Origin: Sphingopyxis sp. FD7
GTDB lineage: Bacteria > Pseudomonadota > Alphaproteobacteria > Sphingomonadales > Sphingomonadaceae
DNA: 64,000 bases
Direction: 5' to 3'
Assembly (NCBI RefSeq): GCF_003609835.1
Contig: NZ_AP017898.1
Location: 1,798,001 to 1,862,000, forward strand
Positions 7,444 to 25,920 of this stretch are shown in pieces. The position numbers were made by a program, and so were the translations under genes. Below the pieces are notes generated by a model. That model was given only the letters and a program-made list of their open reading frames with translations, was not told the origin of the DNA and did no database searches. Each line of letters opens with the position of its first letter. The stretch's first letter is position 1.

Positions 7444-7457
7444 TGTAACCGGTTGCA
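7444..7457. promoter_or_regulatory. Predicted LacI-family operator upstream of the MFS gene
   Basis: TGTAACCGGTTGCA, near-palindromic around the central CG, 62 bases before the MFS start. The same core recurs before lacI (10015) and in the TonB receptor/GH3 divergent region (21898). An even-length palindrome centred on CG is typical of LacI-family sites. The assignment to the LacI protein encoded at 10117 is inferred from shared context. Confidence 0.7.
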
Positions 7458-7518
7458 TTGGTTCCGGCGTCCCGTTAGACCCATGGCATAACATAGTTTC
7501 GGTGAAGAGGATATCTGC

Positions 7519-8889
7519 ATGGACGTGCCGAATCAGGCGTCCGCCCGGCCCGGCGGGCGATCGACCGCGATGGCGGCCTTTGCGGCGGTAACCGTCCTCT
7601 TCTTTGCCTGGGGCTTCATCACCTCGCTGATCGACCCGCTCGTCGCGGCCGTGAAGGGCATTTTCACGCTCAGCGATGCCGAGGCGCAATTGTCGGCCTT
7701 TGCCTTTTTCATCGCCTATGGCGTGATGTCCTTTCCAGCGGCCGCGCTGATCGCGCGCTTCCATTCGGTGCCCTCGATCCTGACCGCGCTGGCGACGATG
7801 GCTGCGGGCTGCCTCGTGATGCTCGCCGCCGCAAACCTCGCCGTCTATCCGCTCGTGCTCGCGGGATTGTTCATGCTGGCCGCCGGCATCACGATCCTCC
7901 AGGTCGCGGCGAACCCGCTCGCGACCGCACTCGGCGATCCGCGGCGGAGTCATTTCCGCCTGACGTTCAGCCAGACCTTCAACAGCTTCGGCACCTTCCT
8001 CGGGCCGCTGGTCGGCGCGCACCTGTTCCTCGAAGGCGTCGAGGTGAAGGAAGGCAGCGTCGTGACCGACGCCGCGCGCGCGCAGGCGCTCGCGGGCATC
8101 GACAGCGCCTATTTCTGGATCTGCGGGCTGATCCTCGCGCTCCTCATATTTTTCTGGGTCAGCCGCCGGATCGTCGATGCCGCCGTCCCGCCTGCCCCCG
8201 TCGGCGCGCGCGCGGGCATGGGCGAACTGGTCAGCGAGGCCTTCGCGTCGCGCTGGGCCTGTCTCGGCGCGCTTGCGATCTTCCTCTATGTCGGCGCCGA
8301 GGTCGCGATCGGCACGCAGATGGCGTGGTTCCTCAACAGCGACGCGATCTGGGGCCGGTCCGACGCCGCCTTTGGTGTGCCGCTGCTCGGCTTCGCAATG
8401 GGCAGCGACGGCCTCCCCGGCGTGTCGTTGCAGGAAGCAGGCAAGGCGGTCGCCTTCTATTGGGGCGGCGCGATGGTCGGGCGCGCGATCGGATCCATAT
8501 TGCTCGCGCGCGTGTCGGCGGCGAAGCTGCTGCTTGTCTTTACCGCCGCGGCGTTCCTCATGTGCCTTTATGTCGTGCTCGTCGGCGGGGTCGGCGCGGG
8601 TTTCGTCGCGTTGGGAATCGGCCTGTTCAACTCGGTGATGTTTCCGGTGATCTTCTCGCTGACGCTCGAACGTTCGACCGCGCGCGCCGAGGCGACGTCG
8701 GGGCTGCTCTGCACCGCGATCATCGGCGGCGCGATCATCCCCTGGCTCGTCGGGCATCTGTCGGAAGCGACCGATTATGGCACGGCGGTCCTGCTGCCGG
8801 CGATATGCTATGCCGCGCTCTGCGTCTTCGCGCTCGCCGCGGCGCGAACGCCCGCGCGCCAGGCAAGCGCCGGCGCGACAGTCCACTGA
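7519..8889 (+). CDS. MFS sugar porter, FucP/GluP (glucose/galactose) type
   Basis: 456 residues with about twelve hydrophobic segments (for example [56 protein letters not shown] helix near 130). The N-terminal FFAWGF-to-LIDPL segment and the [11 protein letters not shown] block are characteristic of the fucose/glucose-galactose:H+ symporter family. It sits in the inner membrane and would import a mono- or disaccharide released by the neighbouring glycosidases. The start at 7519 follows GAAGAGGA. A LacI-type operator lies 62 bases upstream, and the ABC ATPase gene follows after 26 bases, so the two are probably one transcript. The exact sugar cannot be read from the sequence. Confidence 0.88.
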
Positions 8890-24350: not shown

Positions 24351-24360
24351 GGGGCGGGCC

Positions 24361-25920
24361 GTGACGATCCGCATATCGCTCGCGCTCGCGCTGCCGCTGG
24401 CCTTTGTCGCCGCGGCGGGCGCGCAATCCCCTGCCCGGCCGAACATCGTCTTCATCATGTCGGACGACCACGCCTATCAGGCGATTTCGGCCTATGGCTC
24501 GGAGCTGTCAAAACTGGCGCCGACCCCGAACATCGACCGGATCGCCAAAAATGGCGCGATCTTTACCCAGAGCTTCGTCGGCAACTCGCTCTGCGGTCCC
24601 AGCCGCGCAACCTTGCTCACCGGGCGGCACAGCCATGCACACGGATTCCGGCAGAATGGCAACCAGTTCGACAACAGGGTCTGGGTCTGGCCGCGCGCAT
24701 TGTCGCAGGCGGGCTACGCCACCGCGATGTTCGGCAAATGGCACCTCAACTATTCGCCCGAAGGCATCGGCTTCGACGACTGGAAGGTGCTCGACGATCA
24801 GGGCGAATATTATAACCCCGACATCATCACCCCCAGGGGGCGCAGCATCGTCGAGGGCTATGCGACCGACCTCACCACGCAATACAGCCTCGACTGGCTG
24901 AAGAACGGCCGCGACAAGTCGAAACCCTTCGCGATCCTGATCCACCACAAGGCGCCGCACCGCAACTTCATGCCCGCGCTGCGCCATGTGCAGAAATATC
25001 AGGGCGTGACCTTTCCCCTCCCCGCCAATTATTTCGACGATTATGCGGGTCGCAAGGCCGCGACGATGCAGGAAATGAATATCTACCGCGACATGTATGA
25101 GGGGCACGACCTCAAGATGACCGTCGCGAAGGGATCGGCGCAGCTTCGCTACAATCGCTGGCCCGGCGCCTTCGACCGGATGACGCACGCACAGCAGGCC
25201 GAATGGGACGCGCTTATGCAGGCGGACAATGACCGCATGAACGCTGCCAACCTTTCCGGCCGTGACCTCGCGATCTGGAAATATCAGCGTTACATGCAGC
25301 AATATCTGGGGACGATCGCCGCGGTCGACGAAGGCGTCGGCGCGGTTCTCGACTATCTGGAGGAAAGCGGCCTGGATCGGAATACGGTGGTCGTCTACAC
25401 CTCCGACCAGGGATTTTACCTTGGCGAGCATGGCTGGTTCGACAAGCGGTTCATCTATGAAGAATCGATGCGCACGCCTTTCCTGATCCAGTATCCGGGG
25501 CATATCCGCTCCGGCACGCGTATTGCGGCGCCGATCCAGAATATCGATTATGCACCGACTTTCCTCGACTTTGCCGGGGTAAAGGGGGCGAAAACGATCC
25601 AGGGCCGCTCGATGACGCCGCTGCTGACCGGGCGCACGCCGCCCGATTGGCGCAAGGACGTCTATTATCATTATTATGAGTTTCCGGGTTTTCACGCGGT
25701 CCGCGCGCATTATGGCGTGCGCGGAGAGCGCTACAAGCTCGTGCGTTTCTATGGCGAAGACCTGGATGCGTGGGAGTTTTACGATCTGAAGGCCGACCCG
25801 AACGAGATGAACAATCGGATCGACGACCCGGCGATGACGGTACCGATCGCCGCGATGAAAAAGCGGCTCGTCGAACTCCGCCGCGAATATGGCGACACCA
25901 GCGGGCCCGCGGTGCGTTAG
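24361..25920 (+). CDS. Secreted type I sulfatase (formylglycine-dependent)
   Basis: 519 residues from GTG 24361, with GGGGGCGGG upstream. The Sec signal is MTIRISLALALPLAFVAAAG. Metal-binding FIMSDDHA comes next, then the maturation motif LCGPSRATLLTG with the cysteine (C78) that becomes formylglycine. Further blocks are GKWHL, HHKAPHRNF, YTSDQGFYLGEHGWFDKR and the C-terminal VRGERYKLVRF, giving an S1-family sulfatase resembling those acting on glycosaminoglycan-like sugars. A few S1 members are phosphodiesterases, so sulfate is likely but not proven as the group removed. It is probably co-transcribed with GH3, linking desulfation (or similar) to glucan use. No sulfatase-maturating enzyme is in the window. 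Confidence 0.9.
   Translation: MTIRISLALALPLAFVAAAGAQSPARPNIVFIMSDDHAYQAISAYGSELSKLAPTPNIDRIAKNGAIFTQSFVGNSLCGPSRATLLTGRHSHAHGFRQNGNQFDNRVWVWPRALSQAGYATAMFGKWHLNYSPEGIGFDDWKVLDDQGEYYNPDIITPRGRSIVEGYATDLTTQYSLDWLKNGRDKSKPFAILIHHKAPHRNFMPALRHVQKYQGVTFPLPANYFDDYAGRKAATMQEMNIYRDMYEGHDLKMTVAKGSAQLRYNRWPGAFDRMTHAQQAEWDALMQADNDRMNAANLSGRDLAIWKYQRYMQQYLGTIAAVDEGVGAVLDYLEESGLDRNTVVVYTSDQGFYLGEHGWFDKRFIYEESMRTPFLIQYPGHIRSGTRIAAPIQNIDYAPTFLDFAGVKGAKTIQGRSMTPLLTGRTPPDWRKDVYYHYYEFPGFHAVRAHYGVRGERYKLVRFYGEDLDAWEFYDLKADPNEMNNRIDDPAMTVPIAAMKKRLVELRREYGDTSGPAVR

Follow-up and report, generated by a model that had tools for sequence, protein, structure and literature searches.

A probable local LacI-family regulon for beta-1,2-glucan catabolism in Sphingopyxis sp. 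FD7, with an operator-like site over GH3 active-site codons

A stretch of 64,000 nucleotides of the Sphingopyxis sp. FD7 genome (contig NZ_AP017898.1, positions 1,798,001 to 1,862,000; hereafter the window) was analysed, with emphasis on a gene cluster at window positions 7444 to 25920 that surrounds a lacI gene. The cluster likely forms a local LacI-family regulon for the catabolism of beta-1,2-glucan, with palindromic operators, repression and release by LacI, a path of substrate flow from outside to inside, and an auxiliary site within the gene for a glycoside hydrolase (GH) of family 3. A local LacI regulon is of a known type; the unusual part is the overlap of an operator with active-site codons. 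A search of open-licence PMC full text, at the level of titles and the beginnings of abstracts, returned no paper that deals with the regulon or with an operator overlapping the active-site codons of a GH3 gene; RegPrecise lay outside that search and may hold an in-silico entry.

Operator palindromes and the adjacent LacI regulator

A sequence-only reading of the window had reported three palindromes, located before a major facilitator superfamily (MFS) porter gene, before lacI, and in the divergent region between the genes for a TonB-dependent receptor (TBDR) and GH3. All three could be confirmed as exact copies of TGTAACCGGTT at 7444, 10015 and 21898 (O1, O2 and O3), and the core at 10016–10027 is a perfect 12-base palindrome, GTAACCGGTTAC. 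A fourth site, inside the GH3 gene at 22952–22965, had been missed. The operator is an even palindrome with a central CG that stands before lacI and the neighbouring operons and is kept at orthologous loci. The window has five matches to GTAACCGGTTAC at up to two mismatches; the expected number is 0.41, and none of 100 shuffles attained five. Scanning of the whole genome (3,938,226 bases, two contigs) revealed exact GTAACCGGTTNC at O1, O2 and O3 only, while at one mismatch this pattern was not commoner than its reversed control (13 forward and 19 reverse matches vs 31 and 34). The pattern TGTAACCGGTTACA occurred at up to two mismatches in four places, all within the locus (O1–O3 and the intragenic GH3 site). 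The next 25 places carried three mismatches and can be regarded as background, because at up to three mismatches the reversed control was commoner than the pattern (97 vs 29).

Conservation was evaluated by scanning GTDB contigs with the LacI protein, which returned 79 loci. Thirteen of them, with at least 64% LacI identity, were taken as orthologues: nine from Sphingopyxis, two from close relatives (these 11 are termed Sphingopyxis-type), one from Sphingomonas and one from Sphingosinithalassobacter. Gene order was mostly preserved across the 13 loci. The MFS site was present in all ten Sphingopyxis-type loci holding that region (one with two mismatches), and the lacI-proximal site in 10 of 11, being missing in L035, where the ATPase gene and lacI almost abut. 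Loci L036 and L037 had no site directly before lacI and carried two-mismatch sites before the ATPase gene and before the GH1 gene. Both the GH3/TBDR operator and the intragenic site were found in 13/13 loci. Promoter-specific variants tended to persist across loci, with TTGCA before the MFS gene, TTTCA before GH3/TBDR and TTAC before lacI.

The LacI protein (E ≤ 1e-90) was encoded in 38 of a set of 80 genomes, taken as Sphingopyxis because named orthologues match members of the set in their coordinates. Exactly these 38 also carried perfect copies of the GH3/TBDR operator and of the intragenic string. This string was seen once per holder genome, 1044–1067 bp from O3, and in none of the 42 non-holders, and its reversed control gave no match. 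The exact MFS variant (O1) was found in 31 of the 38 LacI-bearing genomes and also in G414, a genome without LacI, with a single match for the reversed control. Joint presence is expected from the position of lacI and GH3 in one locus; what is telling is that the strings have been lost in none of the holders. Because the 38 genomes and the 11 Sphingopyxis-type genomes overlap, their counts cannot be treated as independent.

Within a family-level set of 199 genomes, 20 relatives possessed the GH3 protein at E ≤ 1e-200, and LacI was called at E ≤ 1e-60. An operator with up to two mismatches lay near GH3 in all 13 relatives with LacI and in none of the seven without it; GH3 identity was 47–50% in six of these seven and 46–48% in six of the 13 LacI-bearing relatives. 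A site with at most one mismatch occurred anywhere in 16/17 LacI-bearing genomes vs 1/10 genomes without LacI (35 sites in total), and the reversed control for these 27 genomes produced 10 sites in six genomes. Among the matches listed, best first, all 30 such sites of the 11 Sphingopyxis-type genomes were within the orthologous locus. The palindrome is scattered neither in this genome nor in these close relatives and is conserved at the orthologous loci where the earlier reading had proposed to look for it. Its link to this LacI protein, previously drawn from position, is now backed by co-occurrence.

Several observations weigh against so tight an association. At two mismatches the reversed control (1–11 per genome) was about as common as the pattern (4–10). 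Sites with at most one mismatch lay off the locus in five LacI-bearing relatives (three each in G086 and G155, one in G110, two each in G209 and G210), none of the three in G155 being at its LacI locus, and one such site occurred in each of two LacI-less genomes (G183 and G414). These off-locus sites may belong to a wider regulon or to a paralogous LacI. The corresponding explanation for the FD7 palindromes, that they serve a different LacI paralogue or a carbon regulator of broader scope instead of the adjacent lacI, is highly improbable: it could draw on the other LacI-like candidates of the genome (17 at first look) and on the displaced sites of G155, but site presence tracks this LacI, one site precedes lacI itself, and the genome holds no further site at up to two mismatches. 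The off-locus positions are C11:588200, C13:82737 and C16:119935 in G086; C2:547210, C2:547232 and C1:376667 in G155; C1:2492818 in G110; C24:94357 and C66:5475 in G209; and C10:672297 and C15:76060 in G210.

O3 overlaps a -35-like TTGTAA, and a -10-like TATAG starts 10 bases past the site. In 21/21 aligned loci the base before the GH3/TBDR operator is T, which places the -35-like TTGTAA across the left end of the operator; CTGTATAG follows six bases after the operator. An overlapping set of 23 operator-bearing rows had the CTGTATAG element in 21; L198 lacked it and L201 carried TTGTATAG. The fixed spacing between operator and TATAG across genera argues for occlusion of the GH3-directed promoter, and the arrangement suggests promoter occlusion at O3. 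A generic promoter scan did not include the O3 promoter in its listing, and its count of five promoters vs 2.4 expected is uninformative. When no inducer is present, a LacI dimer would occupy the 14-bp operators of the MFS, lacI and TBDR/GH3 promoter regions and block RNA polymerase; a glucan-derived sugar would then free LacI from them.

An operator-like site over the GH3 active-site codons

The intragenic site CGTAACCGATTACA spans the GH3 codons GTA ACC GAT TAC (V-T-D-Y) within the motif GFVVTDY, whose Asp we take from the family to be the GH3 nucleophile; alignment to JMB19063 (3u48) revealed the same motif. We lean toward the view that these active-site codons double as an operator for the gene's own repressor, the synonymous choice being fixed in Sphingopyxis and allied lineages under joint catalytic and regulatory selection. 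The codon evidence comes from synonymous changes counted on the gene tree and compared with draws matched by amino acid, in 14 orthologues (that of the window and 13 fetched by LacI) not selected for the site. No synonymous change was observed over the four codons vs a mean of 8.4 in matched draws (P = 0.0007), and this run was the only unchanged one among 90 invariant four-residue runs. The codon GTA accounts for 25 of 671 Val codons in these orthologues, and 14 of those 25 stand at this position. The neighbouring S-I-N-E run was also low, with one synonymous change. A lower value from a 17-member set (P = 0.00005) was not used, a genus having been added after its codons were seen, nor were earlier codon tests on sets partly chosen for site presence.

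The distribution of the site was determined in 397 genomes, of which 26 carried the GH3 protein at E ≤ 1e-290; 25 rows were readable (all but L200). The V-T-D-Y motif was present in all 25, and the intragenic site in 13, own genome included (5/5 in genus g1, 7/7 in g5 and 1/1 in g86). The site is not universal but confined to certain lineages, where it is fixed, and it is missing in several genera that retain the repressor. Of the two rows that lack O3, G129 had no LacI at E ≤ 1e-60 nor in the 34 kb read, and the contig of G239 ends before lacI is reached. Presence of the site did not track the ATP-binding cassette (ABC) importer and GH1 genes: G389 and G228 have both without the site, G086 has the site and neither gene in the stretches read, and G218 gave no row by motif search.

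Some results count against a regulatory role. Twelve of the 25 rows, from other genera, lack the site, 10 of them retaining O3. In the 12 Sphingopyxis-type genomes alone the codon test gave P = 0.004, but at least five other four-codon runs were also unchanged. The test was weaker in all 21 LacI-bearing orthologues (P = 0.027) and non-significant in all 22 (0.11), rises explained by the entry of other genera without the site. The regulon could be real and the site incidental, the V-T-D-Y codons resembling an operator by chance and codon identity being inherited within clades. The motif shared by all 25 rows, with GTN ACN GAY TAY reaching one base from the operator core by codon choice, the missing sites, the conserved S-I-N-E codons and the other unchanged runs of the 12 closest genomes all suit such an origin, which we nevertheless consider unlikely. 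It sits poorly with the rarity of GTA, with an identical string in every genus holder and in all seven members of g5, and with the sole zero-change run among 90. Moreover, the site is the genome's only one at up to two mismatches outside promoter regions, and the reversed control (1–11 per genome) predicts about 0.03 in 18.5 kb. Promoter sites of relatives have the same CCGA/TCGG core, before the MFS gene in L029 and before the esterase gene in G339, G350 and G131, so the LacI clade plausibly tolerates this variant core.

The intragenic site is best read as a candidate lineage-specific auxiliary operator like lac O2, being an operator-like sequence within a gene that shows synonymous conservation, in some lineages only. 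In the E. coli lac operon, LacI acts with an auxiliary operator O2 in lacZ, at a spacing of about 400 bp, and the gal operon likewise has an internal operator, OI. The lac operators are O1, O2 and O3. As in lac, a LacI-family repressor is accompanied by a promoter operator and by an operator in the first enzyme gene; unlike lac, the spacing here is about 1.05 kb, the TBDR promoter is divergent, and the site lies on active-site codons. Situated 1.05 kb past O3, it would probably tighten repression through looping or as an elongation roadblock. A further point against the proposal, and a further difference from lac, is that no lac-type tetramer tail could be seen in the window LacI, a protein of 342 amino acids whose alignment to E. 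coli LacI (360 amino acids) ends at residue 332 of the latter. Looping would need some other bridge, which the protein may have, and an elongation roadblock is the alternative.

Genes of the locus and the predicted substrate

Gene calls were based on Pfam and NCBIfam profiles, and signal or lipobox N-termini were judged by eye (Table 1). The gene set from outer membrane to cytoplasm described in the sequence-only reading holds in these profiles.

Table 1. Predicted genes and operator sites of the locus (window positions)
Feature	Position	Strand	Evidence or context
Operator O1, TGTAACCGGTTGCA	7444..7457	none	Between guaB (-) and MFS gene (+)
MFS sugar porter (FucP/GluP-like)	7519..8889	+	PF07690; TIGR01272/TIGR00885 below cut-off
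MalK/UgpC-type ABC ATPase	8916..10004	+	PF00005, OB_MalK, TOBE_2; NF008653 above cut-off
Operator O2, TGTAACCGGTTACT	10015..10028	none	ATPase stop 10 bp upstream; lacI ATG 88 bp downstream
LacI-family regulator, 342 aa	10117..11145	+	PF00356 5.7e-16, PF13377 8.2e-32
Solute-binding protein, lipobox-like N-terminus	11162..12430	+	Nearest solved 3uor, next Lin1841
ABC permease 1	12427..13323	+	PF00528
ABC permease 2 (MalG-like)	13320..14135	+	PF00528
Alpha/beta-hydrolase esterase, signal-like N-terminus	14132..14911	+	PF00326/PF02230
GH1 beta-glucosidase, without signal-like N-terminus	14911..16257	+	PF00232; TIGR03356 above cut-off
EEP-fold phosphoesterase, signal-like N-terminus	16257..17126	+	PF03372
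GH144 beta-1,2-glucanase, lipobox-like LTAAC	17160..18674	-	PF10091 4.8e-90; XcSGL 8xul E 2.5e-154
TBDR, CarboxypepD_reg domain (Oar-like), start codon uncertain	18732..21785	-	PF25183, PF00593, PF13620
Operator O3, TGTAACCGGTTTCA	21898..21911	none	TBDR/GH3 divergent region
GH3 beta-glucosidase, signal-like N-terminus	22032..24350	+	PF00933/PF01915/PF14310; 3u48, 5xxl, Lin1840
Intragenic operator-like site, CGTAACCGATTACA	22952..22965	inside GH3	1054 bp from O3
Sulfatase, CGPSR motif	24361..25920	+	PF00884, PF16347

The regulator combines an N-terminal LacI helix-turn-helix with a periplasmic-binding-protein-like sensor, as in LacI-family transcription factors. GH144 and the solute-binding protein appear lipoprotein-like, GH3, the esterase, the EEP protein and the sulfatase secreted-like, and GH1 neither; these predicted types fit an outside-to-inside order. 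A TBDR, glycosidases, an inner-membrane transporter and a regulator are clustered, share operators and would be co-regulated, as expected of a proteobacterial TonB-dependent carbohydrate utilization locus. No SusD family member was found among the scanned genes of 7519–25920, so the SusD-like lipoprotein paired with the receptor in Bacteroidetes SusC/SusD-type polysaccharide utilization loci has no counterpart there. The sulfatase motif is presumably of the formylglycine type.

The enzymes of the locus point to beta-1,2-glucan. The closest solved relative of the window GH144 is XcSGL (8xul), followed by CpSGL (5gzh, 7.6e-39). At the clan Glu position the 8xul chain carries Gln and is presumably a mutant. 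The GH3 protein has its best solved match in JMB19063 (3u48) and stands near BT_3567, presumably 5xxl, with Lin1840 more distant. The clan-defining residues of GH144 are Glu239, Phe286 and Tyr367 (PMC12102758), and in addition to its PF10091 domain the window protein keeps all three by hand count on the 8xul alignment. XcSGL has narrow specificity for beta-1,2-glucan and is inactive on CM-cellulose, barley beta-glucan, glucomannan, xyloglucan, lichenan and laminarin (PMC12102758). Assignment to GH192, considered on account of XCC2207 in a paper on new families, was rejected, since the same source places XcSGL in GH144. The solute-binding protein best matches 3uor of X. citri; the second-best, Lin1841, is a binder of sophorooligosaccharides (PMC12369401), and the linkage specificity of BT_3567 is given in that source. 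The beta-glucan substrate of the sequence-only reading can thus be narrowed to a predicted beta-1,2-glucan by the proximity of GH144 to XcSGL.

It seems distinctly unlikely that GH144 is an accessory and that the substrate of the locus is instead a different beta-glucan or a beta-glucoside (cellobiose, laminarin or a sulfated glycan). For GH1 and GH3, the best solved matches are beta-glucosidases of general type, which weighs against a dedicated beta-1,2-glucan system. The third-best solved relative of the sulfatase is a GlcNAc-6-sulfatase, and the four solved relatives of the EEP protein include a mannosyl-6-phosphatase; these would suit other substrates, and they also make a substituted glucan plausible. 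Against other substrates, GH144 accompanies TBDR and GH3 even where ABC and GH1 genes were not found, and XcSGL acts on beta-1,2-glucan and on none of the six other polysaccharides tested (PMC12102758). The beta-1,2-glucan proposed here would be an osmoregulated glucan from the periplasm of bacteria that may carry substituents. It would be imported through the outer membrane by the TBDR and cleaved by GH144; the esterase, phosphoesterase and sulfatase would strip substituents while GH3 trims the glucan. Oligosaccharides would be taken up by the ABC importer and cleaved by GH1, and glucose would enter through the MFS porter.

The composition of the locus varies in relatives. The fetched stretches of 15 relatives include a GH97 gene as part of the locus. 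In nine of them (L254, at 15736–17796, L233, L239, L179, L256, L236, L243, L258 and L231) a copy of the MFS-type operator TGTAACCGGTTGCA lies no more than 600 bp from the start of this gene. In L035 and L038 (Sphingopyxis) the gene lies between the MFS and ATPase genes, G228 has no operator within 600 bp, and three stretches end early. The window has no GH97, and the one in its genome is far from the locus. Alpha-1,6-cyclized beta-1,2-glucan is known from Xanthomonas (PMC11228985), and the fit of a GH97 alpha-glucosidase to it is suggestive only. The ABC importer and GH1 were not found in the stretches read of L108–L111, L233, L235, L238, L242 and L246, loci from several genera that retain lacI, TBDR, GH144 and GH3, often with the esterase and EEP genes; the uptake module therefore seems exchangeable. 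In Lysobacter silvestris (L039), GH3, lacI, TBDR and GH144 are also clustered, with sites at 9936, 18761 and 18951: TGTAAACGTTTACA before lacI and two such upstream of GH144 (TGTAAACGTTTACA/TGTAAACGCTTACA). This locus has the same genes with an altered operator core.

Beside the sulfatase gene lie an HxlR-family regulator gene (25976–26908, - strand) and a second TBDR gene (26994–29300, - strand); no TGTAACCGGTTACA site at up to two mismatches was found in this region (25976–29300). Two long + strand open frames, at 17220–18683 (antisense to GH144) and 25889–26812 (antisense to the HxlR gene), had no Pfam match and were rejected as genes; they are likely an effect of high G+C content.

Related systems and significance

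Clusters with a sophorooligosaccharide-type solute-binding protein and ABC importer together with GH3 or GH1 are described for Listeria innocua (lin1839–1841) and Streptomyces griseus (SGR_2422–2427), the latter also with an esterase, as here (PMC12369401). The Sphingopyxis locus differs in being Gram-negative and in having TBDR, GH144, MFS, sulfatase and EEP genes, and S. griseus uses GH193, unlike the window locus; the available text of PMC12369401 mentions no LacI for these clusters. XcSGL (XCC2207) of Xanthomonas campestris is the nearest solved relative of the window GH144 (PMC12102758). The predicted LacI regulators BglR1-3 of Caulobacter, assigned to beta-glucoside operons, are likewise alphaproteobacterial and lie beside beta-glucoside genes (PMC4052901), a likeness of gene context; the stem Sphingo does not appear in the main text of that source.

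For a conserved locus found in 38 of the 80 genus genomes, the analysis predicts a regulator as well as the substrate, which would be beta-1,2-glucan. It also offers a specific example of an enzyme active site whose synonymous codons seem to be maintained for repressor binding. As codon choice can bring the V-T-D-Y motif of the GH3 clade to within one base of the LacI operator core, an enzyme-fold motif may be a recurrent source of intragenic operators.

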